Origin: Candidatus Planktophila sp.
GTDB lineage: Bacteria > Actinomycetota > Actinomycetes > Nanopelagicales > Nanopelagicaceae
NCBI GenBank assembly: GCA_030681675.1
Contig: JAUXRP010000015.1
Coordinates: 223,478-287,477 of the forward strand
DNA length: 64,000 nucleotides
Direction: 5' to 3'
Under the pieces are notes generated by a model. The model saw only the letters and a program-made list of their open reading frames with translations, did no database searches and was not told the DNA's origin. The number at the start of each line of letters is the position of its first letter. Positions within the stretch are counted from its first letter, which is position 1. This document shows positions 29,022 to 42,040 of the stretch, one piece after another. The position numbers and the translations under genes are program-made.

Positions 29022-30293
29022 ATGAAAAAATTACTCGTCTTAGGTGCAGGCGCCGCTGGCACGATGGTCGTGAATAAACTTAGAAAAAAGCTTCCTAATG
29101 ATGCATGGGAAATAACAGTAGTCGATCAAGAGACTGAACATATTTATCAGCCAGGGTTATTGTTAATGCCCTTTGGAACGTATGAACCTGAGCAGTTAAT
29201 TAAAAAACGCCAAAGTTTCTTTCCTAAGGGTGTTAACTTTATTCAAGCCGAGATTGAAAAAGTTGATCCAACACTCAATAAAACCTTCTTGAAAGATGGA
29301 CGTGAAATTGGGTATGACTACTTAGTAATTGCATCTGGTACGACTCCACGCCCGGATCAGACTCTTGGCATGAGTGATCCTGCCATTTGGTATAAGAGCG
29401 TTTTTGATTTCTATACATTGGCAGGCTCAACTGCGCTGCGTGACGCACTTAAGAATTTTAACGGTGGCCGCTTAGTTGTTCATATCACTGAGATGCCGAT
29501 TAAGTGTCCAGTTGCTCCGCTAGAATTTACATTCCTCGCCAATGCATACTTTGAAAAGCGCGGAATCCGCGACAAGGTTGAGATTGTTTTTGTGACTCCT
29601 CTAGAAGGTGCATTCACGAAACCCGTTGCTTCTAAGCAGCTTGGGATGATGCTCAATGATCGTAAAATATCATTGGAGTCAGATTTTGTAATCGAGCATA
29701 TTGATGTTGAAGCCAAGACGATGGTCTCAATGGATGAACGCGAGATTGCCTTTGATTTACTCGTAACTGTTCCGCTTAATATGGGTGCTGATTTTATTGA
29801 ACGCTCTGGATTGGGCGATGAACTCAACTATGTTCCAGTTAATAAGCGTAATTTCCTTTCAGATGCATATCCCAATATCTTTGTTTTAGGTGATGCCTCC
29901 AATATTCCCGCATCTAAAGCTGGATCGGTAGCGCACTTTGCTGTCGACTTATTCTCAGAAAACTTTGTTGACTATGTCAATGGCCGCCCGATGAATCATA
30001 ACTTCGATGGCCATGCCAACTGCTTTATAGAATCGGGAAACGGTAAAGGCTTATTAATTGACTTTAATTACGAGGTGGAACCCTTAACTGGAAAATTCCC
30101 AATCCCAGTGATTGGTCCATTAGCATTGCTGAAGGAGAGTCGCCTCAATCACATCGGGAAGTTAGCCTTCCGATGGATCTATTGGAACATTTTGCTCAAA
30201 GGTCGTTATCTACCAATTCCGGCACTGATGTCAATGGCTGGAAAAGTCCAAGTAACCAAAAATGAAAAGGAGAGATTAAATGCCAACAATTGA
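29022..30293 (+). CDS. sqr: Sulfide:quinone oxidoreductase family flavoprotein
   Basis: Likely oxidises sulfide to bound polysulfide and passes electrons to quinone. The 423-residue protein has the N-terminal FAD loop LLVLGAGAAGTMVV, the second flavin motif FVLGDASNIPASKAG, and just two candidate redox cysteines: C162 (KCPVAPLEF) and C334 (ANCFIES), matching the essential pair of SQR. The amphipathic C-terminus (about 378-410) fits membrane attachment. AGAGG lies 6 bp before the ATG. It overlaps the dsrC/tusE-like gene by 14 bp, so sulfane sulfur made here could go directly to that carrier. The subtype is not assigned. Confidence 0.85.
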   Translation: MKKLLVLGAGAAGTMVVNKLRKKLPNDAWEITVVDQETEHIYQPGLLLMPFGTYEPEQLIKKRQSFFPKGVNFIQAEIEKVDPTLNKTFLKDGREIGYDYLVIASGTTPRPDQTLGMSDPAIWYKSVFDFYTLAGSTALRDALKNFNGGRLVVHITEMPIKCPVAPLEFTFLANAYFEKRGIRDKVEIVFVTPLEGAFTKPVASKQLGMMLNDRKISLESDFVIEHIDVEAKTMVSMDEREIAFDLLVTVPLNMGADFIERSGLGDELNYVPVNKRNFLSDAYPNIFVLGDASNIPASKAGSVAHFAVDLFSENFVDYVNGRPMNHNFDGHANCFIESGNGKGLLIDFNYEVEPLTGKFPIPVIGPLALLKESRLNHIGKLAFRWIYWNILLKGRYLPIPALMSMAGKVQVTKNEKERLNANN

Positions 30294-30594
30294 AATTGCA
30301 GGCAAGCAAGTCACCGTCAACGATGAGGGTTTCATGACCGTCTATGACGAATGGAACGATGAAATTGCAAAAGTACTTGCTGCACAAGTAGAAATCGAAT
30401 TAACTCCCCGCCATTGGGAGGTCATCCATTTTCTGCGAGATGACTTTAAAAAAGAGGGTGAATCATCCACATCTCGCCATACCCAAACTGTCGGTGGTTT
30501 TCCGATTAAAGAACAGTTTGAATTATTTCCAAAGAAACCTGCCAAGAAAATGTCTTACATAGCTGGACTTCCAAAGCCTAAGGGCTGCGTCTAA
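30280..30594 (+). CDS. DsrC/TusE-family sulfur carrier protein
   Basis: A 104-residue sulfur-relay protein. It shows the family helix region LTPRHWEVIHFLRDDF and the flexible C-terminal arm IAGLPKPKGCV with the conserved penultimate Cys103 (CysA). The second arm cysteine of sulfite-reductase-type DsrC (CysB, eleven residues earlier) is replaced by Ser92, as in TusE-type proteins with a single cysteine. No dsrAB is visible. Sitting between sqr and a DsrE-like gene suggests it carries persulfide from sulfide oxidation, or toward tRNA thiolation; the choice is open. Confidence 0.88.
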   Translation: MPTIEIAGKQVTVNDEGFMTVYDEWNDEIAKVLAAQVEIELTPRHWEVIHFLRDDFKKEGESSTSRHTQTVGGFPIKEQFELFPKKPAKKMSYIAGLPKPKGCV

Positions 30595-30605
30595 AGGAGA
30601 ATGAA

Positions 30606-31127
30606 ATGACTACACCTGCAATTGTTCCAAATTTTGGCGGGGAAGAAACTGACCGCAAATTAGCAATTATCTGTTCAAAGGGAAATCTTGATATGGCATA
30701 CCCAGGTTTGATTTTGGGCAATGCCGCCTTAGGCGAAGGTATTGAAACACATATCTTCTTTACTTTCTGGGGCTTTGACATGATTATTAAATCCCGTATG
30801 AACGATCTGCAATTCTCACCCGCTGGTAACACTGCAATGCATTTGCCAGGCACCAATCTACATATCCCTCAAGCTGTTATGCCGGCACCAGGTATGACTG
30901 CGATGGCAACCAAGATGTTGAAAAAACAGTTAGAAGATTTACATATCCCCGATGTCCCCGATTTCTTAGATCAAATTGTGGCATCCGGAGGGCATTTGTG
31001 GGCATGCCGTTTATCTGCCGATATGAACAAAGTGAGTGAACTTGATTTGCGCGATGACGTCGAAGGCATTATTAGTGCCTCAGATTTCATAGAGATATCA
31101 GCGAACGCTCAACTACTCTTTATTTAA
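30606..31127 (+). CDS. DsrE/DsrE2-family sulfurtransferase-like protein
   Basis: A 173-residue protein of the DsrE/F/H superfamily, larger DsrE2 type: KLAIICSKGNLDMAYPGLILGNAA near the N-terminus with Cys23 in the position typical of the active cysteine, and a second conserved-looking cysteine, C134, in HLWACRLSADM. The hydrophobic FFTFWGFDMI segment is usual for the fold. It begins 11 bp after the DsrC-like gene, with GGAG before the ATG. It probably relays sulfane sulfur with that protein. There is no clear TM helix, so peripheral membrane association is only possible. Confidence 0.82.
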   Translation: MTTPAIVPNFGGEETDRKLAIICSKGNLDMAYPGLILGNAALGEGIETHIFFTFWGFDMIIKSRMNDLQFSPAGNTAMHLPGTNLHIPQAVMPAPGMTAMATKMLKKQLEDLHIPDVPDFLDQIVASGGHLWACRLSADMNKVSELDLRDDVEGIISASDFIEISANAQLLFI

Positions 31128-31190
31128 GGCACAAACTACGCTCAGATTTGCTGTGTTGTAAATCACATTTCTGGATATTATGATTTCCCC

Positions 31191-31823
31191 ATGCAACCGG
31201 GGGCCGTTAAAAGCACAATAAAGATAATTCTCGCTGCTCTCGTGAAGGGCTTTGTTGTAGGTGTAGTCGCCCGGGCATGGATGAGATGGATTTCAACAGA
31301 TCCTGAGTTCTCATGGAGTGGATCGATTTTTATAGTAATGGCTTTTATGATTTTTATGGTCAATCAATCTTTGGTGAGATTACTTCGTCAACGGTTTAAG
31401 GGCAGGCGTAGCGTGCTCCTCATTCGCACAAGTGGTGTTATTTTCTCACTACCCATCTTTACTGCCGCTGGCGGAATGATGTTTCCCGCTGTGGCATTGG
31501 CATCAGTGGCTACATGGAACACTGCACTTGGCAAACGCACAAGGGGAGTACTACTCCTACTAGCTCTAGTTATTCCGGTAATAATTTCAAGAGATATAAT
31601 CTCCGATTTCGGATGGAGTTTTGCCACAATAGGCCGAATCCTACTTTTTGTATCTATTTATTCCGTCGTTATCTCCTCAACTAAACCTACTTTGTCACCA
31701 TATCGAAATGAAGCATCAGAAGTGGTGAAATTGAGCAAACGCAAGAAGATTCTCTTAGTCGTGGCGATACTAGCAATCGGCGGGATTTTCTTTATCTTTA
31801 CGGTTGGCCTATCTGGAAGTTAA
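31191..31823 (+). CDS. Membrane protein of unknown function, paralog of the gene at 34627
   Basis: A 210-residue integral membrane protein with about five helices. It opens with a helix running into the conserved ARAWMRWISTDPEFSWSG and ends in a positively charged loop plus a last helix. I do not recognise the family. It is clearly homologous to the inverted gene at 34627-35253 along its whole length, including WMRWIST and the SDFGW..GR motif. A TATTAT element lies 9 bp before the ATG. Nothing in the sequence gives a substrate or reaction. Confidence 0.8.
   Translation: MQPGAVKSTIKIILAALVKGFVVGVVARAWMRWISTDPEFSWSGSIFIVMAFMIFMVNQSLVRLLRQRFKGRRSVLLIRTSGVIFSLPIFTAAGGMMFPAVALASVATWNTALGKRTRGVLLLLALVIPVIISRDIISDFGWSFATIGRILLFVSIYSVVISSTKPTLSPYRNEASEVVKLSKRKKILLVVAILAIGGIFFIFTVGLSGS
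31278..31297 (+). repeat. Inverted repeat, left copy (coding)
   Basis: Twenty bases identical to the reverse complement of 35153-35172. They encode WMRWIST in the two paralogous membrane proteins. The exact match inside a less conserved surrounding suggests strong constraint or gene conversion. Confidence 0.8.
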
Positions 31824-31872
31824 GGCTAACTCTCATTGTTTTGAAAGTTTCGAAATTTTTAAACTTTACGAG

Positions 31873-31878
31873 TAACAT
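31873..31878 (+). promoter_or_regulatory. -10 element, leaderless
   Basis: TAACAT, six bases, ATG 31885, without a Shine-Dalgarno. Confidence 0.45.
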
Positions 31879-31884
31879 GTAAAT

Positions 31885-32952
31885 ATGAAGCGCCGCATGG
31901 CTATTCTGCTAGTACTTTTGTTTGTGATTGACTCTGTTGCAACCTCGGCGGTGGCAAAACCAATCCCCGGAGCGGTATGTCTTAAAGCTGGAGCAACTTC
32001 AAAATCAGCCGGAGTGATTTATACCTGCATAAAATCTGGAAAGAAACTCATGTGGAGTAAGGGTAAAAAAATTGTAAAGCCGACTCCGTCACTTTCAAGT
32101 GAACCGAACCCTCAGCCGAATCAAACACGAACAACAGTAGTTTTTCCTCCTGAGAGTTCAGCTTCGGCAATCACGCAACCACCTATAAGTATGGTGGGCA
32201 TTAACGATCAACATGCACAGTTTAGTGGCGGCATGGATCCTAACTACGTAACTTTAGGACCAAAGACTGGTACACATCCCGAGATGGGTACCTACGATTC
32301 AAAAAACGGGGTCAATATTGAGATCGGATATGGGCTTCCTATTTTGGCACCAATTGATGCACGCTTTATAGGTTTCAATAATCGTAATGCCGATTACCGA
32401 GCCGCCGATGCTTTAGGTCCATTACGTCAACCATTTGATGATCTTGCTTTGTGCTTTGAGTCTACCCATCCCGACTGGCCGGGATTAATATTCTGTTTCT
32501 ACCATCTGAAGAATTCACCACTTCTACTGGGAATTGATAAGTCTCCATTGTGCTCAAATGCAAAGGAGTGGCCAGGTCCTTTACGCGCGCAAGGGTGGCA
32601 ATTTTTCACAAATAATGACGATAACAAGATTGGCGATGCAGTCTCGGCTAGTTGCCAAGCACTGTTAGGTCGCACGGTAAAACGTGGCGAAGTCATTGCT
32701 TATTCGGGGAGAGTGGACACCCATTCGCAGGCGCCGATTACTATGAAAGTTCCACATAATAGTATCAATCCAACAATAAAAAACGGAGACAAGAATCTAC
32801 ATTGGGTTCAGGGGGATGTCTTCTTCTATTGGAAGTGCTTTTCAAAAGATGCAGTATTTGAAAAAGGAGTTCTTGCCTATCCTTGGGAGTGTGGCGGATA
32901 CCAAGCACCAAGTGAGCAACGAGCGATTAGCTACAAGTACTCGAAACCATAA
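31885..32952 (+). CDS. Secreted protein with degenerate M23-like domain
   Basis: A 355-residue exported protein. It has a signal peptide (about 1-24, ending AVAK) and a short disulfide-type module (GAVCLKAGATS...YTCIKSGKKLMWSKG), then a Pro/Thr/Ser linker (about 65-105). The C-terminal domain (120-355) has phrases typical of LytM/M23 folds: YGLPILAPIDARF, FCFYHLK, KRGEVIAYSG. The zinc-ligand HxxxD and HxH motifs are absent, so it is probably not an active peptidase and may bind wall or regulate a hydrolase. Six or more cysteines suggest disulfides. Confidence 0.6.
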   Translation: MKRRMAILLVLLFVIDSVATSAVAKPIPGAVCLKAGATSKSAGVIYTCIKSGKKLMWSKGKKIVKPTPSLSSEPNPQPNQTRTTVVFPPESSASAITQPPISMVGINDQHAQFSGGMDPNYVTLGPKTGTHPEMGTYDSKNGVNIEIGYGLPILAPIDARFIGFNNRNADYRAADALGPLRQPFDDLALCFESTHPDWPGLIFCFYHLKNSPLLLGIDKSPLCSNAKEWPGPLRAQGWQFFTNNDDNKIGDAVSASCQALLGRTVKRGEVIAYSGRVDTHSQAPITMKVPHNSINPTIKNGDKNLHWVQGDVFFYWKCFSKDAVFEKGVLAYPWECGGYQAPSEQRAISYKYSKP

Positions 32953-32967
32953 TTCATTGAAGTATCA

Positions 32968-32995
32968 TTGCTTTTCGTTTTTATCCTAGTGATAA
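32968..32995 (+). promoter_or_regulatory. Promoter of class I aldolase
   Basis: TTGCTT (32968-32973), a 16-bp spacer and GATAAT (32990-32995) resemble a standard -35/-10 pair. They lie about 75 bp upstream of the aldolase ATG, which has its own GTGAGGA ribosome site. Confidence 0.45.
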
Positions 32996-33070
32996 TTCTG
33001 CTCCTCCTCATATTTTTAATTGGAAAAACAGCATCTAGGGGATTGTATTTCTCTTGAAAGTGAGGAAAAT

Positions 33071-33970
33071 ATGAATGTGAATCAATTACAGGTAATGCGC
33101 TTAGGTCACGGTTTCATTGCAGCCTTGGATCAAAGTGGCGGGAGTACTCCTAAGGCGTTAAAACTTTATGGTATTGAGGAGAGTTCCTACTCAAACGAAG
33201 CGGAAATGTTTGACCTCGTTCATGCGATGCGCTCCCGAATTATCAAAAGCCCAGTTTTTACCAGTGATCGAATTCTTGGTGTCATTCTCTTTGAAATGAC
33301 CATGAATAGAGAAATCGATGGAATGGGGGCTGCCGAATTCCTATGGAATCGGAAAGGAATCGTTCCCTTTCTCAAAATTGATAGTGGACTTCTTGAAGTG
33401 GTGAATGGCGTTCAGTTAATGAAACCAATCCCACAATTAAGTCAAAGGCTCAAACATGCTAAATCCCATCAGGTCTTTGGGACGAAGATGCGCTCAGTAA
33501 TCAAATTGGCACATAGGCAAGGTATTGAATCCTGCTTAAAACAACAGTTTGAAATTGCTGCCGAGGTTCTTGATGAATATCTAATACCAATCATCGAGCC
33601 AGAGGTAGATATCTGGAGCCCGGAAAAAGCTGAAGCAGAAACCATTCTTAAGGATTCTTTGATATCTGAACTAGATTCACTTACTGGGGAACAAAGTGTG
33701 ATGCTTAAGTTAACGCTTCCTAGCATAAATGGCTTTTACTCGGATTTGGTATCGCACCCACGCGTTCTAAGAGTCGTAGCCCTTTCTGGAGGGTATTCGC
33801 GCTTGAAAGCAAACGAGCTATTAGCCCACAATCATGGCCTGGTGGCCAGTTTTTCTCGGGCTTTGACTGAGGGTTTAAACATTCACCAAAGTGAAAGTGA
33901 ATTCGACTCAGTTCTCGATGAATCTATTCAAAGCATATTTGACGCCTCAACAATTAAAGTTAATGCATGA
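33071..33970 (+). CDS. Fructose-bisphosphate aldolase class I
   Basis: Cleaves fructose-1,6-bisphosphate by Schiff-base chemistry. The 299-residue protein has the class I active-site set: Asp20 (AALDQSGG), Lys102 (FLKID), Glu176 (IIEPEVD) and the Schiff-base Lys213 (LKLTLPS). The C-terminus is ALTEGLNIHQSE...LDESIQSIFDAS. The ATG is preceded by GAGG; an upstream in-frame TTG at 33020 is not needed. A decayed 3' piece of a second aldolase gene lies at 39283-39383. It stands as a single gene. Confidence 0.92.
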   Translation: MNVNQLQVMRLGHGFIAALDQSGGSTPKALKLYGIEESSYSNEAEMFDLVHAMRSRIIKSPVFTSDRILGVILFEMTMNREIDGMGAAEFLWNRKGIVPFLKIDSGLLEVVNGVQLMKPIPQLSQRLKHAKSHQVFGTKMRSVIKLAHRQGIESCLKQQFEIAAEVLDEYLIPIIEPEVDIWSPEKAEAETILKDSLISELDSLTGEQSVMLKLTLPSINGFYSDLVSHPRVLRVVALSGGYSRLKANELLAHNHGLVASFSRALTEGLNIHQSESEFDSVLDESIQSIFDASTIKVNA

Positions 33971-34146
33971 TTTCTCTAGGTTCTGCGGAAGGTGAGTAGA
34001 CAATAGGGGAGTTTCTTTTTCATGCAGACTGCAATGCAAGAAGTGGCACTCGTTCATTTATACTTTCGCAATCAGCATTTCATATGACCGAAAATCGGCC
34101 ACACCAAAAATGAACATTAGTCGAAACACAAAAATACCGATTGATA

Positions 34147-34581
34147 CTACTTCTCTGTTCTGTATCTTTTCTTCATGTCGGTAAGTGATCGCTTTATCAC
34201 CAGTCCGAGTATCTTAAGATTAATATCTTCTATGCCTTTTATAGCCAAGCAAGACTTGCCGGAGAACTTGTGCTTGCCAAGGTTTTCGAGATCTTTTTTA
34301 TATTCTTCCCAACCCATTAAGTTATATAGAGTAAATCCAGTTGAGGAAATTGCAAAACCGGTCATCATATATTCATGCTCCCCTCCCTTACTGTCAAAAT
34401 AATGATATTTTCCAAAACCGAAGAGCTTATTCCACATTACACATGGTGAGCCAGTAACTTTGGCATAGAAATCAACTAGTGCCAATGCTTCTTTTCGCAG
34501 TTGCGAATCCTGGGCAAAGTTTTCCTCCAAATAAATTTCAGGAGTAATTGCAGTTGGTTGCGTCTTGTTAGTGTACGTCAC
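34147..34581 (-). CDS. DUF1801 domain protein
   Basis: A 144-residue cytoplasmic protein with the DUF1801/YdhG-like pattern: MWNKLFGFGKYHYFDSKGGE, TGFAISSTGFTLYNLMG, LGKHKFSGKSCLAIKGIEDIN and a closing amphipathic helix. No reaction is established for the family. The start is GTG, with TAGAAT 7 bp upstream (leaderless type). The gene is AT-rich compared with core genes here, as is much of the 31-41 kb region. Confidence 0.7.
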   Translation of the reverse strand: MTYTNKTQPTAITPEIYLEENFAQDSQLRKEALALVDFYAKVTGSPCVMWNKLFGFGKYHYFDSKGGEHEYMMTGFAISSTGFTLYNLMGWEEYKKDLENLGKHKFSGKSCLAIKGIEDINLKILGLVIKRSLTDMKKRYRTEK

Positions 34582-34588
34582 AGTATTA

Positions 34589-34594
34589 ATTCTA
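34589..34594 (-). promoter_or_regulatory. -10 element of the DUF1801 gene, leaderless
   Basis: On the minus strand TAGAAT, seven bases, GTG at 34581. Confidence 0.4.
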
Positions 34595-34626
34595 TCCTTG
34601 AATCAGTTTTAAATATTATTTGTATG

Positions 34627-35253
34627 TCAAAAGTCAATAGATATTCCAATAGCTGTGAGAAAGAGAAACGCTACCAAAACAATGGAAAAGAAGGTCAGAG
34701 TTTTTTTGAGGCGACTATTTGGCAACATGCTTGAATCAGAGCCAATATAAGGGGTGACCGTAGGTTTCATGAGAAGAATTACTACGGAATAGATAAGAAT
34801 GACGAGCAAGGATCTTCCGAAAGTCGGAATATTCCAACCAAAATCAGAACCAATTCCCTTGATTCCAATTACGGGTATTACTAAGCTAATTATTAGGAGA
34901 GCAATACGTATTTTTCTATCTATCTTTTTTTGCCAAAGTGCAATTGACGCCAAAATGACGGTCGGAAACATTCCTGCACCTGCTCCGGTAAAGAGTGGAA
35001 TGGTAAGGAATAATCCACCACCTCTAATTACTGAAGTTAATCGTCTAGTTTTAATTCTCCTTCTTAAGACATAGACTGTGGCTTGCGCAGAAGAAAAAAT
35101 TGTAAAAGCGAGAATTATGAATATTGTCCCGCTCCACGTAAAATCTGGTTCAGTTGAAATCCATCTCATCCAGAGGCGTGCAGTAACTCCTAAAACTAAG
35201 CCGCCGAAAACTGCAACGAGAATTATCTTCCAACCTCTTTGAGTCGCAATCAT
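34627..35253 (-). CDS. Membrane protein of unknown function, paralog of the gene at 31191
   Basis: A 208-residue protein with about five membrane helices and the same ARLWMRWISTEPDFTWSG opening motif, SDFGWNIPTFGR segment and basic loop before the last helix as the gene at 31191, in opposite orientation about 3 kb away. Its ATG is 12 bp after the 3' end of tRNA-Met on the same strand. TACAGT lies 5 bp before the ATG, so it could be read through from the tRNA or started by itself. Function unknown. Confidence 0.8.
   Translation of the reverse strand: MIATQRGWKIILVAVFGGLVLGVTARLWMRWISTEPDFTWSGTIFIILAFTIFSSAQATVYVLRRRIKTRRLTSVIRGGGLFLTIPLFTGAGAGMFPTVILASIALWQKKIDRKIRIALLIISLVIPVIGIKGIGSDFGWNIPTFGRSLLVILIYSVVILLMKPTVTPYIGSDSSMLPNSRLKKTLTFFSIVLVAFLFLTAIGISIDF
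35153..35172 (-). repeat. Inverted repeat, right copy (coding)
   Basis: Reverse complement of 31278-31297 over 20 bases; it encodes WMRWIST in the second membrane paralog. Confidence 0.8.
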
Positions 35254-35265
35254 GGTTAACTGTAG

Positions 35266-35339
35266 TGGGGCGAGTCGGGCTCGAACCGACGACGACAGAA
35301 TTATGAGTTCTGGGCTCTAACCAACTGAGCTACCGCCCC
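35266..35339 (-). tRNA. tRNA-Met (CAT)
   Basis: A 74-nt cloverleaf. The acceptor arm GGGGCGG pairs with TCGCCCC (one G-U), with D arm GCTC/GAGC, anticodon stem CAGAA/TTCTG around CTCATAA (anticodon CAT), T arm GTCGG/CCGAC, and discriminator A. The paired first base argues against initiator tRNA. Elongator Met is preferred over Ile2 (lysidine-modified CAT), which cannot be excluded by eye. A diverged copy of its 5' part plus upstream flank is found at 40821-40846. Confidence 0.93.
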
Positions 35340-35514
35340 GTGCGGGGAGAGTTTATTGCATATGTAGGGTGATTAGCCAAATGGAACTAAATGGCACAGT
35401 CGTGAAGTGTTCAAGACGTTGTTCCTATTCTGCATCTCGCCTTAACAAAAGTTCCTCTGGGAGAATTTCATCGAATAACTTCACTTCAAAATTTTCGGTT
35501 TCTTTGACATTTTT

Positions 35515-35928
35515 TCATGACTTAGATGTCTTTTTTGCAATGTGCCACACATTATGGTCGTCAATCCGCTCATACGTGAATTCATCGACTAGAGCATTAA
35601 TAAGAGCAAGTCCTCTTCCGCTCTCGGCGAGAACATCTGGCATCTCGACATCGACTATTTCTATATCGCCGGGTTGTCCAGTGTCACGCAGACTTGCTTC
35701 TATCTTGTCGCTTGAAATGTGCACCGAAAGCGAACATGAGACGCCACTTCCATCACCTGCGTGGCGGAAGATATTCGAAGCCAATTCAATGAGGGCAGTC
35801 TCAAATCTCATTTGATCTTGGATGTCAACTTCAGGAGAATTAACCCAAATGGCTTGCAGAAGGTTGTGAACCGCATCCAAAGTATCTGGAGGAGTATCGA
35901 TTAAGAGTGTGTGCGATTTTACATTCAT
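35515..35928 (-). CDS. RsbW-like anti-sigma / serine-protein kinase (HATPase)
   Basis: A 137-residue GHKL-type ATPase of the RsbW/SpoIIAB class: N-box ALIELASNIFRHAG (Glu and Asn for Mg-ATP), G1 LRDTGQP and G2 ESGRGLALINALVDE. Such proteins phosphorylate an STAS partner and, when free, bind a sigma factor or other target. Here the STAS gene is immediately upstream with a 4-bp overlap, so the pair is a partner-switching module. No sigma factor or PP2C phosphatase gene is adjacent. The neighbour is a glycosyltransferase, suggesting that this pair controls polysaccharide output. Confidence 0.88.
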   Translation of the reverse strand: MNVKSHTLLIDTPPDTLDAVHNLLQAIWVNSPEVDIQDQMRFETALIELASNIFRHAGDGSGVSCSLSVHISSDKIEASLRDTGQPGDIEIVDVEMPDVLAESGRGLALINALVDEFTYERIDDHNVWHIAKKTSKS

Positions 35929-36260
35929 TCGATCACATACGCGCTTTCTACATTTGTGTATGGAGTCAGGACGCGATCCAAATTAGTAAGTTGCAATACC
36001 AATTTGACCTGCTCCGTGGGAGATGCGATTCGTAAATCTCCATTCGCTTGGCGCGCAGCTTTAAGGCAGCCGATTAGAGCACCCAAACCAGAAGAATCTA
36101 AGAATTCGACATTGGTTAGATCTACGACTATGCGATTTTGACCCTTGGCCAAAATTACATCAACTTCTTCTCGCAGACGGTGGGCATGAACCATGTTCAA
36201 CTTCCCAACAGGAGTTACTACGACTACTCCATCTGAAATAGCCTTATGTGTTATTTCCAT
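35925..36260 (-). CDS. STAS-domain anti-anti-sigma factor
   Basis: A 111-residue SpoIIAA/RsbV-like protein: MEITHKAISDGVVVVTPVGKL, the helix-loop VDLTNVEFLDSSGLGALIG with the phosphorylatable Ser in DSSG, then KLVLQLTNLDRVLTPY. The start ATG 36260 lies 17 bp inside the glycosyltransferase 3' end. GGAAGG precedes it, so translation is coupled to the transferase. Its stop overlaps the RsbW-like gene (ATGA). When unphosphorylated it should capture the kinase. Confidence 0.9.
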   Translation of the reverse strand: MEITHKAISDGVVVVTPVGKLNMVHAHRLREEVDVILAKGQNRIVVDLTNVEFLDSSGLGALIGCLKAARQANGDLRIASPTEQVKLVLQLTNLDRVLTPYTNVESAYVIE

Positions 36261-38205
36261 GACTACCTTCCTTTTGCGAATCGGAACCTCTGTACAAAAT
36301 GGCCGGGAATAGGACCCTGAGTAACGATAAGTCGAATAGTACCCATATGACGTTAATGACAGTAGCCAGGAGTGGTGCTCGACCTGTGGCATATCGTGCA
36401 GTACCTACGAATAGAGAAATCACGAATGCTGCAATAAATACAAGTTGCGGGTAGATAAGTTTCCAGTTTGGTGAGTTTTCGTTCCGAGTTTTTGGAGTAA
36501 CCACGAAGGTCATGGGTCTTTTGAAGTAAACATTCGCGAACGCGGAAGTAGTTGCTTTTATCCACACTGGGAATAACGCATAGCTGTACTGCTGCCCTCT
36601 CCACGTTGAAATGCCACGGCTGGCGAAGAGAAAAATCAGTTGGTTGGCAATCATGAACGGGATAAATCGTAAAAAGAATTCCACCGGATCTGTGCGAACT
36701 GGCAGTATGCCGAAACATAGAAAAATGATTGGGGCGGCAAAGTAGAAAAGAGCCGCAAATCCACTGAAGTAGCTCCACATCGTAGAAAAATACATAAGTC
36801 TTTGAGGCACCGACATACCCTTTTGAAAAATTGGATTTTCTTTCAGGAAAACTTGCATAGTTCCCTGCGCCCATCGGAGTCTTTGCGTAAGCATCGAACT
36901 CATGTCTTCGGGAGCTAATCCAATCGCCAGAGTCTCATGGTGATACACGCTCTTCCACTTCATTCCATGAAGGCGCATGCTAGTCGCCATATCTTCGGTA
37001 ATGGAGATTGTGGCAATTGGCATAATTGGAATCGCTTCGTGTGATCTGTCAACATCTAATGACTTGAGTAGCTCCATGACGGTACTTAGAGCAGCGAGTG
37101 GGCTCAAAGCTTCTGCTGGCAGTCCATCGAGAGTATTTTCTAAGTCATCGATCCACTCTGCGGCCCAGTTTGCATCGCTACTTTGTTCAATTCCAATTAT
37201 GTCTAAGTCGCGCTTGATCTGGTCTAAGTCGGCGAAGACCAGTGCATGAGAAATATATTCAACTCGATCACGCAGAATAAAAGTTGCCTCTCCAAGAGTT
37301 TTTCCATTGCTGATATTTTCTTGCGCTTCAACTACGGCTCCGAGAATTTGATCTAGCGCCTGGCGAAGTTGTTCATCAGATCGAGTTAGTTTTTTCTTCG
37401 CTGCCTTTATTATTTTCCCCGAATCGTTGAGAGACCTCTGTATGGCAGCTTCCAACTCGATGACATACCTTTTGACTCCAAGTTGCATGAGAGCTTCTCG
37501 CCGCAGAACGGCATTTGAGCCGCAGAAGTAGGCAGCACCCCAACCATCTTTACCTTGTTGAATAGGACCATAAAAAAGAGGCGCCTGACTGCCCAGAGGA
37601 TCTGAGATTGAAACATTGCCGAAAGTTTGTGGAGTTTGGACTAGTGCTACACGATCATCAAGAAAGTAGCCCAAAGTGTGATTGAGGATTTCAGGTGCTG
37701 GAACTTGATCGGCGTCCAAGATAAGAATGAATTCACCACTTGTTTGCATCAACGCATTATTTACATTGCCAGCTTTTGCATGCCGCGGGCGATTTTTCCA
37801 TTCGGCGCCGCGAGAGACATAGCCAATGCCTAGGGCCTGCGTTTGATGGAGCAACTCCTCACGTGCACCGTCATCCAAGATCCAAGTTTTATGCGGATAT
37901 CGAATTTTTTGAGCTGCGATGGCGGTATTCATGACCATTTCGATCGGCTCGTTGTATGTGGTAATGAATACATCGACAGTAAGGTCGATGGGTGCCGCTG
38001 GCGGCGCAGGTCTCGTTTTTGCACGCCATACAGTCATACTGAAAAATAGTGAATCAATGATGCTGTATGTCTCACAGATGACGAGCGGAACCGCAATCCA
38101 CCAAGCGCTCATATTCAGAGAAAATAGCCATCTCCATGTGACGTATGTGGTTCCAAGGAGTGCCGACGCGACAATGGAGATTCGGAGCGCCAACATTCGA
38201 TTCAT
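36244..38205 (-). CDS. Cellulose-synthase-like GT2 glycosyltransferase with extra helical domain
   Basis: A processive membrane glycosyltransferase of 653 residues. Two N-terminal helices (about 8-60) precede the GT-A domain: ILDDGA (109-114), DADQVP (164-169), FCGSNAVLRREAL (227-239), then SITED (401-405) and QRLRWAQGT (441-449). Several membrane helices follow (about 470-560, 585-600, 615-640). In BcsA the FCGS and TED motifs are separated by only about 15 residues. Here about 150 mostly charged, helical residues (about 245-395) lie between them. No C-terminal PilZ domain is visible, so c-di-GMP control is not expected. It is operonic with STAS and RsbW-like genes and divergent from galU, which makes UDP-glucose. 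The polymer is unknown. Confidence 0.88.
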   Translation of the reverse strand: MNRMLALRISIVASALLGTTYVTWRWLFSLNMSAWWIAVPLVICETYSIIDSLFFSMTVWRAKTRPAPPAAPIDLTVDVFITTYNEPIEMVMNTAIAAQKIRYPHKTWILDDGAREELLHQTQALGIGYVSRGAEWKNRPRHAKAGNVNNALMQTSGEFILILDADQVPAPEILNHTLGYFLDDRVALVQTPQTFGNVSISDPLGSQAPLFYGPIQQGKDGWGAAYFCGSNAVLRREALMQLGVKRYVIELEAAIQRSLNDSGKIIKAAKKKLTRSDEQLRQALDQILGAVVEAQENISNGKTLGEATFILRDRVEYISHALVFADLDQIKRDLDIIGIEQSSDANWAAEWIDDLENTLDGLPAEALSPLAALSTVMELLKSLDVDRSHEAIPIMPIATISITEDMATSMRLHGMKWKSVYHHETLAIGLAPEDMSSMLTQRLRWAQGTMQVFLKENPIFQKGMSVPQRLMYFSTMWSYFSGFAALFYFAAPIIFLCFGILPVRTDPVEFFLRFIPFMIANQLIFLFASRGISTWRGQQYSYALFPVWIKATTSAFANVYFKRPMTFVVTPKTRNENSPNWKLIYPQLVFIAAFVISLFVGTARYATGRAPLLATVINVIWVLFDLSLLRVLFPAILYRGSDSQKEGSHGNNT

Positions 38206-38336
38206 ATTTAGGTCCTTTTTTAACTCGACCGGCGATTAGAGAATGAACGCGACTTTTCGAAAATGGCGGAAAAAGATTTGTCACAATTATAGATGGGCTC
38301 AGCAATAAATATCTAGTAAATGACCGAAAGTGCCCA

Positions 38337-38342
38337 TAGGCT
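38337..38342 (+). promoter_or_regulatory. -10 element of galU, leaderless
   Basis: TAGGCT, exactly six bases, ATG 38349, without a Shine-Dalgarno. Confidence 0.5.
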
Positions 38343-38348
38343 TGTGCA

Positions 38349-39140
38349 ATGCATATACGGAAAGCGGTCATTCCAGCAGCCGGTCGTGGAACTCGACTGG
38401 AGCGCATCACTTTAGTAAATGCGAAGGAGCTCATTCCCCTCGTAGATCGTCCCGCAATTGATTGGATTGTTAAAGAAGCGACGTCGGCCGGTATCGAAGA
38501 ACTATGTATTGTCACGAGCGCTAACAAACTTGCCGCGCTGTATGCCCACACCGAAGATCTTCCGATTCAGGTCACGTATTTAATTCAATCAAAACCCAAG
38601 GGCTTAGGTCATGCTGTGCAAGTTGCGCGTGATTGGTGTGAGGATGACGCCTTTGCGCTCTTACTTCCAGATGATCTTGTGATGGGCGATCCAATATTGA
38701 CTCGATTGGTTCAACACGTTGCAAGCACAGGCAAGTCCACTTTGGCTCTTACTGAAGTACCCCAGGAAAAGGCACATTTATATGGAGTGGCAGCGGGTAT
38801 GAACGAAGGCGGTGTTGTCCAAATTTCAGATCTCGTTGAAAAACCACCGAGCGGAACGGAACCTTCAAATCTCTCTGTCACCGGTCGGTACGTACTTACT
38901 CCAGAGCTATGGCCGTTTTTGGAGAAAGTTCAGCCAGGAGCAGGCGGAGAAATCCAGTTGACTGATGCTCTACGTGGATTGGCTCATCAAGGCAAACTCT
39001 CAGGCCTAATTACTCAAGGAATGCGTCATGACTTAGGGTCTGCCGAATCATGGCTGAAAGCAAACATCGCATATGGCGCAGAGGTTTACGGAAAAGATTG
39101 GTTGGACGATTTTCACGCGTTGATAAATAAAAGCTCTTAA
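38349..39140 (+). CDS. galU: UTP-glucose-1-phosphate uridylyltransferase
   Basis: Makes UDP-glucose from UTP and glucose-1-phosphate. It has the nucleotidyltransferase loop PAAGRGTRLERIT, the metal/sugar-site Lys in NAKELIPLVDRPAIDW, LLPDDLVMG and GEIQLTDALR near the C-terminus. At 263 residues it is slightly shorter than most GalU. It is divergent from the GT2 transferase (143 bp), so it could supply its donor, and it would also serve the Leloir genes elsewhere in the window. The 3' end abuts a pseudogene scar. Confidence 0.9.
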   Translation: MHIRKAVIPAAGRGTRLERITLVNAKELIPLVDRPAIDWIVKEATSAGIEELCIVTSANKLAALYAHTEDLPIQVTYLIQSKPKGLGHAVQVARDWCEDDAFALLLPDDLVMGDPILTRLVQHVASTGKSTLALTEVPQEKAHLYGVAAGMNEGGVVQISDLVEKPPSGTEPSNLSVTGRYVLTPELWPFLEKVQPGAGGEIQLTDALRGLAHQGKLSGLITQGMRHDLGSAESWLKANIAYGAEVYGKDWLDDFHALINKSS

Positions 39141-39158
39141 GCTCCGCGAGTTAACTTT

Positions 39159-39285
39159 TAAGAGGATTCGATTTTCCAATCCGAACCGGCCTCAGAATCT
39201 TTGATAGTGACCTTTAACTCCATAAGGCGATTTCTAATGGCATCGGCCTCTTACCTTCGCCCACCAGTGCGAGCGGCTTGGCGGG
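39159..39285 (-). pseudogene. 3' remnant of an S51-like/CysRS-tail gene
   Basis: The sequence is closely similar to the 3' end of the intact gene at 40874-42040, including a long identical run around GACCTTTAACTCCATAAGGC and a few bases beyond the stop. Only about 42 codons remain. An in-frame TAA replaces a Trp codon about 28 codons from the end, so it is dead. Homology stops at about 39285, where it joins the aldolase remnant. Confidence 0.8.
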
Positions 39286-39383
39286 TTTTGACAGAGGGCT
39301 TAAACATAAATCAGAGCGAGAAGGAGTTTAATCAATTACTAGATAGTTCTATTCAGAGCAACTTTGAGGCCTCTGTTAAGTAG
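39283..39383 (+). pseudogene. 3' remnant of a class I aldolase gene
   Basis: Encodes RVLTEGLNINQSEKEFNQLL followed by SIQSNFEAS, matching the last about 33 residues of the intact aldolase at 33071-33970. It is clearly diverged from that gene, so it came from a different copy. No upstream part is present. It is fused head to head with the S51/CysRS-tail remnant, with a few shared bases (CGG) at the junction. Confidence 0.8.
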
Positions 39384-39469
39384 TTATATAGTTGGTAATG
39401 TGACCTTGCAGGTCCATGGTTTTAAGAGTACTTTGGCATAAATAGGGAAAGCATTGACAGGGAAGCGCT

Positions 39470-40498
39470 ATGGTAGCAATGGCGAGAAAGTGTCGAACAA
39501 TCTTCATCACCCTTGTGCTCATTATCTCGATGGGACCCTCAATGAGCGTGAGTGCATCGGCTGCTGAAGCGTATCGCTCTGGTCATCCACCGCAGATTAT
39601 ATCCGCGGTTTTTGATGAACAGAGAAGACTCAAAGTGCAGTACAAAGCCGATGATGGCCTTACCTATGGCGGAAAGGTTTATTTAGATAATAACCCATTG
39701 AACGCTCCAGCCCCCATCAAAGACACTTATTATGGGGATTTTATGCACTGTAATAAAAAATCTAACTGTTTAATCCGATGGACATTACCGGTCGCTCCAG
39801 ATGCCGAATCATATACTTTCATTTCTGAGTCACTAGATCCAGTTCGATTTCCTGACGGAACATATTATGTACAGGTTGAGACTTATAATGAAGATCCATA
39901 TCCAAGCACACGAATGTGGGAGAATTCGGCCGTCTCAGTCGTGCAACTGACTACCTTGACAAGCTCTGCCTCTTTTAATCTCGAGAAGCTTGCATCCATG
40001 AAGTTACCTGTTGATAATGGCTCAGTACCTTGTCTCATACTTCGCAGCCGTATAACTCTTGGCAATCGTTTAGTTGCCGGTATAAATATGGAAGTCGAAA
40101 AGTTGAAAACAGAATTTAAGAAAGAAAAAATCCCTTCTATAAAACTAAAAGCCAAAATAGCATGGTATTCGGAATGGATGAGTGAAGTATCGGATATGCG
40201 AGAGACGGATAAAACGAATGCTAATTTAGCCTGTGGTACGGCTCCATCATTGGTGGCATTTGATGGAACTTTTATCCCGATACCTATACCACCTTCAAAT
40301 GGTAAGTCGGCTTGCACAAAAATTCGAACTAATTTAAATTATCTCAATCAGGAGCTAAAGAAAGTCGTTAATAACATATCTGTGACCAGCAGAGGCCAAG
40401 CGGTCCGTATAAAGCAATTAGAGGTCCGTTTTAATCAATTATCCGCAAGCTTGGGGAAATCTTGGCCGAGCGCACTGAAGGATTGCAACCCGATTTAA
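39470..40498 (+). CDS. Secreted protein of unknown function
   Basis: A 342-residue exported protein that I do not recognise. It has a signal peptide (about 1-30, hydrophobic core FITLVLIISMG, likely cut after the SASAAEA region), a beta-rich segment (about 40-170) resembling Ig-like extracellular folds, and a Lys-rich helical or coiled-coil segment (about 205-245). A Pro-rich linker (IPIPIPPS) and a final Lys/Asn-rich helical part with a C-terminal Cys follow. GGGAAG precedes the ATG; a second ATG is 3 codons in. It sits between pseudogene scars and may be recently acquired. Confidence 0.6.
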   Translation: MVAMARKCRTIFITLVLIISMGPSMSVSASAAEAYRSGHPPQIISAVFDEQRRLKVQYKADDGLTYGGKVYLDNNPLNAPAPIKDTYYGDFMHCNKKSNCLIRWTLPVAPDAESYTFISESLDPVRFPDGTYYVQVETYNEDPYPSTRMWENSAVSVVQLTTLTSSASFNLEKLASMKLPVDNGSVPCLILRSRITLGNRLVAGINMEVEKLKTEFKKEKIPSIKLKAKIAWYSEWMSEVSDMRETDKTNANLACGTAPSLVAFDGTFIPIPIPPSNGKSACTKIRTNLNYLNQELKKVVNNISVTSRGQAVRIKQLEVRFNQLSASLGKSWPSALKDCNPI

Positions 40499-40631
40499 AG
40501 TTCAAAATTATTCGACAATAAGAGTAGGTACAAAAAGATAGATACCTAGTCCATTCAAATCCCACTTACCATTGAATTCTAATGGTTTGAGGAATTCTTG
40601 AAATAATCCGAGGTATCTCCAATCATTTGAG
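40499..40631. other. Intergenic sequence, no supported gene
   Basis: The region between the secreted protein and the SRPBCC remnant. A 60-codon frame on the minus strand (40508-40690) runs across the remnant in another frame and has no family resemblance or start signal. I see no RNA structure here. Confidence 0.5.
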
Positions 40632-40826
40632 TTACAATCCAATTTTTTGCCCGAGTCCTGCATCGACTGTAGTATCCATATGACCGCCACCCATTATCCA
40701 CGATGACTTGCTCATGTGTGACGAAAGACGGGTGTGATCATCTAAGAAGGCAAATACCTCGCCCACTTCAGCAGCGATTAATATTTCCTTTTTATAATGT
40801 CGTTTATAAGTTCTATTGTTACTGAG
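40632..40826 (-). pseudogene. Truncated SRPBCC/polyketide-cyclase-like gene
   Basis: Sixty-five codons open on the minus strand read ...KKEILIAAEVGEVFAFLDD, HTRLSSHMSKSSWIMGGG, then HMDTTVDAG and an early stop. This is the N-terminal pattern of a SRPBCC family known for FAFLDDHxRLSxHM and MMGGGxM. Real members continue for about 100 more residues, and there is no ATG/GTG/TTG upstream before the frame closes in the tRNA-like fragment. It is truncated at both ends. Confidence 0.65.
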
Positions 40827-40846
40827 CTACCGCCACTACAGGGGAG
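40821..40846 (-). pseudogene. 5' fragment of tRNA-Met with its upstream flank
   Basis: ACTGAGCTACCGCC (plus strand) followed after 6 bases by GGGGAG matches 35324-35349 with the same spacing. It covers the 5' acceptor strand, D-stem start and promoter-proximal flank of tRNA-Met, in the same orientation. The rest of the tRNA is missing. Confidence 0.65.
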
Positions 40847-40873
40847 TACTTTATAAGGTTCGTGAATTAACTT

Positions 40874-42040
40874 CTAAAAGGATTCGATTTTCCAGTCCGA
40901 GCCAACCTCTGAATCCTTGATTGTGACCTTTAACTCCATAAGGCGATTTCTAATGGCATCGGCGTCATCCCACCGCCCAGCAGTGCGCGCGGCCTGTCGA
41001 GCTTGCAGAAGTGCTTCGATATATGGACCTACTACGGACATAATGTCAACGCGTGGACTTGCGGCAATATTGCCAAGGCGGGTGATTAAAGAGTGCACTG
41101 CAACTCGAGTCTGGATGTCGCGATCTAACTCATCTAAATCCAGAAGTGCCTCAACTGCGGCATTGACTTCACCAGATTCTAGGAGCGCTTCAACTTGACG
41201 GGGATTGACCTTAAATAATTGTGCTGGAGTCTTTTGAACAATAGAACTTCCGGTGTGAGCGATTATCTCTTCAAAAGTAGCTGATTCACCGCTGTTTACA
41301 ATCCATGATTCACCGTGATGGCGGATTGTCATTTGACCAAGACCAAAAACGCTGGCAACACGTGTATCTAAATCAAAACTGACTCCAGTATGACCATCGA
41401 CACCGATGATAAAAGTTTCTGAAGGCAAAATACTTTCTAACACTCTCAAACGTTTTTCTCCGATATAACAAAAACGAGTGTCGTGATTTGCGCCTTCGGA
41501 ATTATCAAAATGTGGGACAACTGCCGCTGACATTCCAGTGTGATGTTCAAGAAGATTCAGTCCATCAAGCCAATGGGGGTCCTGCCCAACTTTGTACATC
41601 TCATAGACCGGAATTGTGTGAGATCCAACAGTTAAAGCGGCGGCAGAGGCAAAAACTAAAGTTCCACGAGTTAGCACTTCATTAAAATGCGGAGTCAGCC
41701 CTAGCTCTCGCCAAACTTTCAATGCATAACTAGGGCTACCAGGGCCGGCAAAGAGCCAGTCAGAATCACGAACTGCGTTGACTGCTTTAGCTAATTCTGC
41801 GCTACTTATATGAGTGTTTCGTAAAGAGATTACGCCAACTGGGTGACCAACTGAGATTTCAAAGTACTCACTTAACTTGGAGGTTAAAACTTCGGCATTT
41901 TCTTGAAAGCCAAATGGAGTATCAAGAACGTTTAAAACTGAATTTTTAGAGGTCTTCAAATCCGAAATCATGCGCTGATGAGGTGTGACCATCGTTGGGC
42001 TGGTTTCCCCAGAGCCCATAACTACAATTGCACGCGCCAT
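40874..42040 (-). CDS. S51-peptidase-like domain fused to a CysRS-type C-terminal tail
   Basis: A 388-residue protein. The N-terminal about 260 residues have the type 1 glutamine-amidotransferase / peptidase S51 layout (VVMGSGETSPTM, DTPFGFQENAE, FAGPGSPSYALKVW, then the elbow FASAAALTVG, in which the nucleophile may be Ser). The C-terminal part (about 285-388) is helical and ends ARTAGRWDDADAIRNRLMEL, then TIKDSEVGSDW, which matches the C-terminal tail of cysteinyl-tRNA synthetases. Function unknown; a hydrolase acting with tRNA or cysteine metabolism is speculation. Its 3' end is duplicated as a remnant at 39159. Confidence 0.75.
   Translation of the reverse strand: MARAIVVMGSGETSPTMVTPHQRMISDLKTSKNSVLNVLDTPFGFQENAEVLTSKLSEYFEISVGHPVGVISLRNTHISSAELAKAVNAVRDSDWLFAGPGSPSYALKVWRELGLTPHFNEVLTRGTLVFASAAALTVGSHTIPVYEMYKVGQDPHWLDGLNLLEHHTGMSAAVVPHFDNSEGANHDTRFCYIGEKRLRVLESILPSETFIIGVDGHTGVSFDLDTRVASVFGLGQMTIRHHGESWIVNSGESATFEEIIAHTGSSIVQKTPAQLFKVNPRQVEALLESGEVNAAVEALLDLDELDRDIQTRVAVHSLITRLGNIAASPRVDIMSVVGPYIEALLQARQAARTAGRWDDADAIRNRLMELKVTIKDSEVGSDWKIESF

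Follow-up and report, generated by a model that had tools for sequence, protein, structure and literature searches.

What does a partner switch control when its kinase and its STAS protein are encoded in overlapping genes with a polysaccharide synthase? The question is raised by a stretch of 64,000 nucleotides from Candidatus Planktophila sp. (contig JAUXRP010000015.1, positions 223,478 to 287,477; hereafter "the window"), in which a BcsA-like family 2 glycosyltransferase (GT2), a STAS protein and an RsbW-like serine kinase are encoded on the same strand. We propose, at a probability of roughly 0.45, that this locus represents an Rsb-type partner switch in which the polysaccharide synthase replaces the sigma factor as client, and in which RsbW is predicted to dock on an insert of the synthase. 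Direct control of the synthase would account for the insert, the linkage of the genes and the missing sigma client. Moreover, since the insert tracks the regulatory module in both directions in a sample of the bacterial class, the idea that partner switching directly governs a synthase becomes testable.

The three-gene locus

The genes and sequence elements in question are the following (window coordinates):

36244 to 38205, minus strand: BcsA-like GT2 polysaccharide synthase, 653 aa (open reading frame, ORF; Pfam Cellulose_synt and Glycos_transf_2 above cut-off)
35925 to 36260, minus strand: STAS protein of the anti-anti-factor type, 111 aa (Pfam STAS and TIGR00377 above cut-off)
35515 to 35928, minus strand: RsbW/SpoIIAB-like GHKL serine kinase, 137 aa (Pfam HATPase_c_2 above cut-off)
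36087 to 36098, minus strand: DSSG motif of the STAS protein with the predicted phospho-serine Ser56 (read from the sequence)
37018 to 37476, minus strand: insert of the synthase, residues ~244-396 (gap between two BcsA-matching stretches)
36991 to 36999, minus strand: TED codons, synthase residues 403-405, directly behind the insert (translation)

An initial annotation of the window, made from the sequence alone, had described this gene set, its strand and overlaps of 17 bp (synthase/STAS) and 4 bp (STAS/RsbW), all of which are borne out by the ORFs and by Pfam, and the DSSG motif that it named is in place. A longer STAS ORF would begin at the ATG at 36392, an unlikely start because the STAS proteins of relatives begin near the shorter one. 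The predicted structure of the RsbW-like protein is closest to the anti-sigma factors SpoIIAB, RsbW and UsfX. In the host genome (1.83 Mb, 98% complete) its gene is the only one with HATPase_c_2 above cut-off, and neither this protein nor the STAS protein has a match in PHROGs.

The annotation was also right that neither a sigma factor nor a PP2C phosphatase lies alongside: the PP2C profile gave no match within 30001-42000 of the window, and four sigma queries found none in the entire 64 kb. Among the components of an Rsb-type switch, the GHKL kinase and a STAS protein with an acceptor serine are thus present in the window, while the PP2C and the sigma client are absent. A Pfam scan likewise agrees that the synthase is devoid of PilZ. 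The further suggestion that STAS phosphorylation acts instead of cyclic di-GMP (c-di-GMP) finds support only in part: the synthase lacks PilZ, but the genome encodes one GGDEF protein.

The synthase and its insert

The synthase contains the motifs DDG, DAD, FCGSN, TED and QRLRW. Twelve motif positions, those of the aspartate pairs, TED and QxxRW among them, were checked and do not vary across the 163 non-redundant copies introduced below. Sequence matches to BcsA in the PDB fall into two separate stretches, residues 6-243 and 397-629. The ~150 residues between them, located between the FCGS and TED motifs, have no BcsA counterpart and form the insert. Scoring 333 bits, the protein misses the 699-bit cut-off of the NCBIfam CelA model (TIGR03030). 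An AlphaFold2 model built on 85 sequences (mean predicted local distance difference test score, pLDDT, of 81) adopts the BcsA/CesA fold, as judged by a Foldseek match to BcsA.

In the model the insert comprises long helices (236-271, 275-299 and 304-337); behind them, a stretch of low confidence leads into the predicted TED finger helix (405-414). The block-mean pLDDT of the C-terminal part is 36-62 across 341-400, with values below 50 at 337-367 and 390-400. Residues E365, S368, P369, A372, R387, E390, A391 and P396 are nevertheless conserved at ≥96%. Because these conserved residues sit in the poorly modelled end of the insert, this end is a possible docking segment.

The insert and the regulatory module occur together

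The link between insert and module was assessed in a sample of 394 genomes of the class, 22 of which encode an insert-bearing synthase; 19 of these 22 loci were compared, the window's own, its 94% identical relative and one locus cut by a contig end being omitted. PP2C, STAS and RsbW genes were all present at 19/19 insert-bearing loci, while none of 19 insert-free BcsA-like control loci had STAS or RsbW. Most control loci extended ~5 kb either way, a few of them being shorter at contig ends, and in one of them the PP2C profile matched weakly through its GAF part, at a distance of 3.5 kb. The absence of RsbW, alone among the three genes, was also examined with a general model: among the Pfam matches listed for 17 control genomes and genome G395, no HATPase_c_2 domain lies within 5 kb of an insert-free gene, the closest on the same contig being 7.5 kb away (G207). 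Two genomes, G326 and G388, encode both kinds of synthase and carry the module only at the insert-bearing one. The compared loci are related and hence not independent of each other, and no p-value is attached to these counts.

Conservation among relatives

To what extent is the gene set conserved? GTDB species genomes were scanned and the best 80 of 178 relatives used, and further samples were added from the class, from the order of G336 (396 genomes) and from the family of G085 (341 genomes), along with two more loci of the genome that harbours locus L084. Profiles for STAS, RsbW, PP2C and synthase were derived from the hits that the 80 GTDB loci had yielded, and distant members may therefore be missed. 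The resulting 179 synthase copies, including that of the window, were reduced to 163 by dropping copies more than 98% identical; the broken copies L166 and L207 and a second copy in G1037 stand outside this count. Insert-bearing synthases were found in 22/396 genomes of the order and 69/341 of the family sample, and the genera concerned include Cryobacterium, Curtobacterium, Arthrobacter, Nocardioides, Williamsia and Planktophila. The synthases of relatives are 51-94% identical to that of the window, the closest one likewise belonging to Candidatus Planktophila, and the same gene order recurs beside them, well beyond what chance would give.

RsbW adjoins the synthase in 158/163 copies, STAS in 134/163 and a SpoIIE-type PP2C, counted if co-directional and no more than 2.2 kb away, in 122/163; all three are present in 121 copies. 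Loci L242 and L245 have a PP2C nearby on the opposite strand. STAS lies downstream of the synthase in 133/134 and RsbW in 157/158 cases, the exception being L073. The PP2C gene is placed directly before the synthase or directly after RsbW in most loci outside Curtobacterium, and both PP2C proteins tested by Pfam consist of GAF and SpoIIE domains. Residues expected for a working switch are strongly conserved: Asp55 and Ser56 of STAS each in 134/134 and Ser57 in 133/134 copies, Glu48 and Asn52 of RsbW in 158/158 and its Gly-Arg-Gly in 157/158 (N-box and G2 box), and the catalytic aspartates of PP2C in 121-122/122.

The order of synthase, STAS and RsbW genes, which the initial annotation proposed to look for in related genomes, is accordingly kept in many genera. 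Its view of a partner-switching pair tied to a synthase, with neither a local sigma factor nor PilZ, stands, with two refinements: a PP2C is normally included in the set, and the synthase has an insert, not mentioned in the annotation, that is the likely docking site. As a separate observation, the genome of L232 (G806:C6) contains several synthase modules; in one of them, the match lying between PP2C and STAS is confined to the tail of a synthase gene. At L207 (G650:C22) a second synthase copy is split into two frames, and no module was matched in the flanking 1.5 kb on each side.

Natural variants and the probable loss of the phosphatase gene

The module varies in Curtobacterium, where all 26 non-redundant loci (28 before redundancy removal) comprise the synthase and RsbW with neither STAS nor PP2C nearby. 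The partner retained beside the synthase is RsbW. In three Curtobacterium genomes examined, one STAS-RsbW pair and PP2Cs are encoded elsewhere, and the STAS protein may act in trans. In the loci L229-L231 of this genus, the second STAS-RsbW pair scores like the synthase-linked ones, and in L230 and L231 it follows a gene that by eye resembles a major facilitator superfamily transporter.

In the lineage of the window it is the PP2C gene that is absent. The host genome encodes no SpoIIE PP2C, and neither the profile nor blastn against L042 revealed a PP2C remnant beyond the RsbW gene of the window. Locus L041, the 94% identical relative, has no PP2C in the 0.7 kb past RsbW. In L042, where the synthase is 80% identical and the surroundings are syntenic (by eye, GalU-, M23- and SIMPL-like genes are shared), a PP2C gene is present with a 4-bp overlap. 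Because this nearest syntenic relative has the gene, PP2C was probably lost in the lineage of the window, and its absence is probably not part of the design. One PP2C_2 protein is encoded elsewhere in the host genome and could replace the missing enzyme, and loss of the phosphatase step is therefore not proven. Within the genus, the synthase occurs in 2/61 genomes examined, many of which are incomplete, and locus L166 (G395:C53) retains broken pieces of synthase and PP2C with neither STAS nor RsbW; this locus is decaying.

The search for a sigma-factor client

The host genome encodes five sigma-70 proteins: RpoD, a SigH-type extracytoplasmic function (ECF) sigma factor and three further ECF-like proteins. 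None is of the SigB/SigF type. In the lists of up to 25 models per sigma protein, a SigB/SigF/SigG model appeared for RpoD only, with 129 of the 234 bits called for. RpoD barely passes the NCBIfam actinobacterial "SigB" model NF005920 (467 of 464 bits), which we take to describe a principal-like group and not the SigB of Bacillus. Four of the host's own sigma proteins served as queries for the loci of relatives, many of which span ≤8 kb; a sigma-like gene was found in 7/162 of them at no common position, and three of these seven are RpoD some kb off.

Polymer-related and other neighbours

Upstream of the synthase a divergent gene is found:

38349 to 39140, plus strand: GalU-like nucleotidyltransferase (Pfam NTP_transferase; GalU is the best NCBIfam model, below cut-off)

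This enzyme is a possible supplier of UDP-glucose, and from the likeness of the synthase to BcsA and of the neighbour to GalU one may guess that the polymer is a beta-glucan. Genes with a putative role in polymer processing recur at the loci of relatives. The protein of L084 named by Pfam as a member of glycoside hydrolase family 26 (GH26) has matches in 22/162 insert loci versus 1/19 controls, and the N-terminal half of an L095 protein, which has no Pfam name and looks GH26-like by eye, in 80/162 versus 0/19; combined, genes of either kind occur in 91/162 insert loci versus 1/19 controls. OpgC-type acyltransferase domains were found in 68/162 versus 0/19. None of these three kinds of gene was found in the 64 kb of the window. 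The gene L095:8036-10873 and similar ones beside the synthase join an OpgC C-terminal domain to the GH26-like N-terminal part, a possible polymer-modifying fusion.

Farther off in the window, 29022-31127 (plus strand) encodes a Pyr_redox_2 protein, which by eye resembles sulfide:quinone oxidoreductases, followed by DsrC- and DsrE-type genes, a trio reminiscent of a sulfur relay. The genes at 31191-31823 (plus strand) and 34627-35253 (minus strand) encode ~209-aa proteins that are 48% identical to each other and lack a Pfam match, and thus form a duplicated family.

A proposed mechanism and its alternatives

In the proposed switch the RsbW-like protein would bind the synthase, likely via the insert, and keep it idle. 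Upon a signal, the SpoIIE-type PP2C, which often contains a GAF domain, would dephosphorylate the STAS protein in the full form of the system seen in most relatives, and unphosphorylated STAS would in turn capture RsbW, thereby releasing the synthase. Once the signal is over, RsbW would phosphorylate the serine of the STAS DSSG motif and return to the synthase. In the lineage of the window, the phosphatase step would call for another enzyme, e.g., the PP2C_2 protein encoded elsewhere in the genome. Worded more narrowly, and held a little less firmly, RsbW might be an "anti-synthase" seated on a purpose-built insert by the finger helix, STAS an "anti-anti-synthase" and PP2C the sensor of a sigma-free system with no need of input from PilZ or c-di-GMP; many actinobacteria would then be able to turn polymer synthesis on and off at the post-translational level. 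RsbW is favoured as the partner of the synthase because its gene stays with the synthase most often. The partner that touches the synthase, inhibition as the direction of control, the signal and the polymer are parts that we infer.

Several observations weigh against this proposal. Two insert-bearing synthases, those of L084 and L294, stand without a module; the genome of L084 has one complete module at another site, together with a second set of synthase, STAS and RsbW. The other copies without RsbW are L137, which lies at a contig end, and L110 and L204, which have STAS and less than 2 kb of downstream sequence. The G1-box Asp is lacking in 30/158 RsbW proteins (29 changed, one gap), which renders kinase activity there doubtful, even though STAS and PP2C are intact. 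All 17 of these loci with a genus name belong to Arthrobacter or Paenarthrobacter (L228 of the L084 genome being one of them; the loci concerned fall within L058-L109 and elsewhere), and beside such RsbW genes 25/29 PP2Cs have no GAF domain by profile versus 31/122 overall, their catalytic residues being kept. Co-variation between STAS and RsbW, a pair expected to bind each other, gave no clear outlier in direct-coupling analysis (132 paired loci, effective number 84), which marks the method as too weak at this depth. Partial distance correlations (121 loci) point to the insert in the case of RsbW (0.29 and 0.28) but, to a similar degree, also in that of PP2C (0.33 and 0.30) and in part of STAS (0.31 and 0.13), such that RsbW is not singled out. 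The presence of a STAS-RsbW pair elsewhere in Curtobacterium means that local absence of STAS does not prove it dispensable. Finally, the set of the window itself lacks a phosphatase.

How do other explanations fare? The roles of the two regulators could be exchanged, such that STAS in its unphosphorylated form would attach to the helical insert and activate the synthase, RsbW being merely the kinase that stops it. The long helices modelled for the insert suit this idea, since SiaC is described in PMC8457831 as binding the long helical stalk of the cyclase SiaD and thereby activating this enzyme, with phosphorylation blocking the interaction. In V. fischeri, moreover, the active output in biofilm that depends on polysaccharide is SypA in the unphosphorylated state (PMC8256260). 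Yet Curtobacterium keeps RsbW and lacks local STAS at every locus, the opposite of the pattern that a close STAS-synthase partnership suggests, a point softened in turn by the distant STAS-RsbW pair of the three genomes examined. On balance we regard this alternative as rather unlikely. The pair of the window's lineage might instead be decaying and no longer at work, for which the missing SpoIIE PP2C, the synthase and PP2C fragments of L166 and the scarcity of the synthase in the genus could speak; all three ORFs of the window are open, however, with their motif residues in place, and in L012/L041, the 94% identical copy, each of the three genes matches its profile almost from end to end, so that decay appears unlikely.

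Two further explanations leave the synthase out of the switch, and we consider either of them improbable. If the locus were an ordinary transcriptional switch within a synthase operon, RsbW would bind a sigma factor encoded elsewhere, as its structural likeness to SpoIIAB, RsbW and UsfX, the score of STAS as an anti-sigma antagonist and the narrow pass of RpoD on NF005920 might suggest. Against this, the sigma factors of the host are RpoD and four ECF-type proteins, sigma genes are rare at the loci, and the tracking of the insert by the module would go unexplained. Alternatively, the module could control another part of the pathway, such as export, acyl transfer, hydrolysis or UDP-glucose supply, in line with the abundance of GH26-, L095- and OpgC-like genes at insert loci. 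These genes are missing from many loci as well as from the window, though, while RsbW stays with the synthase, and in the class sample the module goes with the insert.

Comparison with known systems

No system with this layout was found in the literature searched (titles and abstract openings, subscription papers being mostly outside), in keeping with the statement of the initial annotation. The Rsb and SpoIIA switches (RsbU-RsbV-RsbW-SigB and SpoIIE-SpoIIAA-SpoIIAB-SigF) have regulator families and conserved residues in common with the module of the window. They differ in that their client is a sigma factor, the place of which is taken here by a glycosyltransferase, and in that the window is devoid of a PP2C.

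The closest precedent for a STAS-like protein that activates an enzyme is the SiaABCD system of Pseudomonas aeruginosa, which consists of the PP2C SiaA, the kinase SiaB, the STAS-like SiaC and the diguanylate cyclase SiaD. The client of this system makes c-di-GMP, whereas the linked enzyme of the window is a GT2 polymer synthase and not a cyclase. Furthermore, SiaC belongs to DUF1987 and is phosphorylated on Thr68, unlike the Pfam STAS protein with its DSSG motif described here, and membership in the Sia family is not claimed.

STAS proteins combined with a serine kinase/phosphatase also act on polysaccharide-linked behaviour in the SypA/SypE system of Vibrio fischeri and the HmpU/V/W system of Nostoc (PMC8256260 and PMC10120452, each in part), where SypE is a single dual kinase/phosphatase. 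These systems belong to other phyla, and the available portions of the two papers name no insert-bearing synthase as client; the 2021 review (PMC8256260), as far as accessible, gives the STAS target of SypA and HmpV as unknown. At the locus described here, the gene of the candidate target for such a polysaccharide-linked STAS switch overlaps that of the STAS protein, and an insert sets this target apart.

The synthase itself resembles BcsA in its catalytic core (D, D, TED, QxxRW), motifs and fold. It differs by the absence of PilZ, by the insert of ~150 residues ahead of the TED finger helix and by missing the CelA cut-off. If the proposed mechanism holds true, partner switching would constitute a second route, besides PilZ and c-di-GMP, by which BcsA-type synthases are gated across many actinobacteria.

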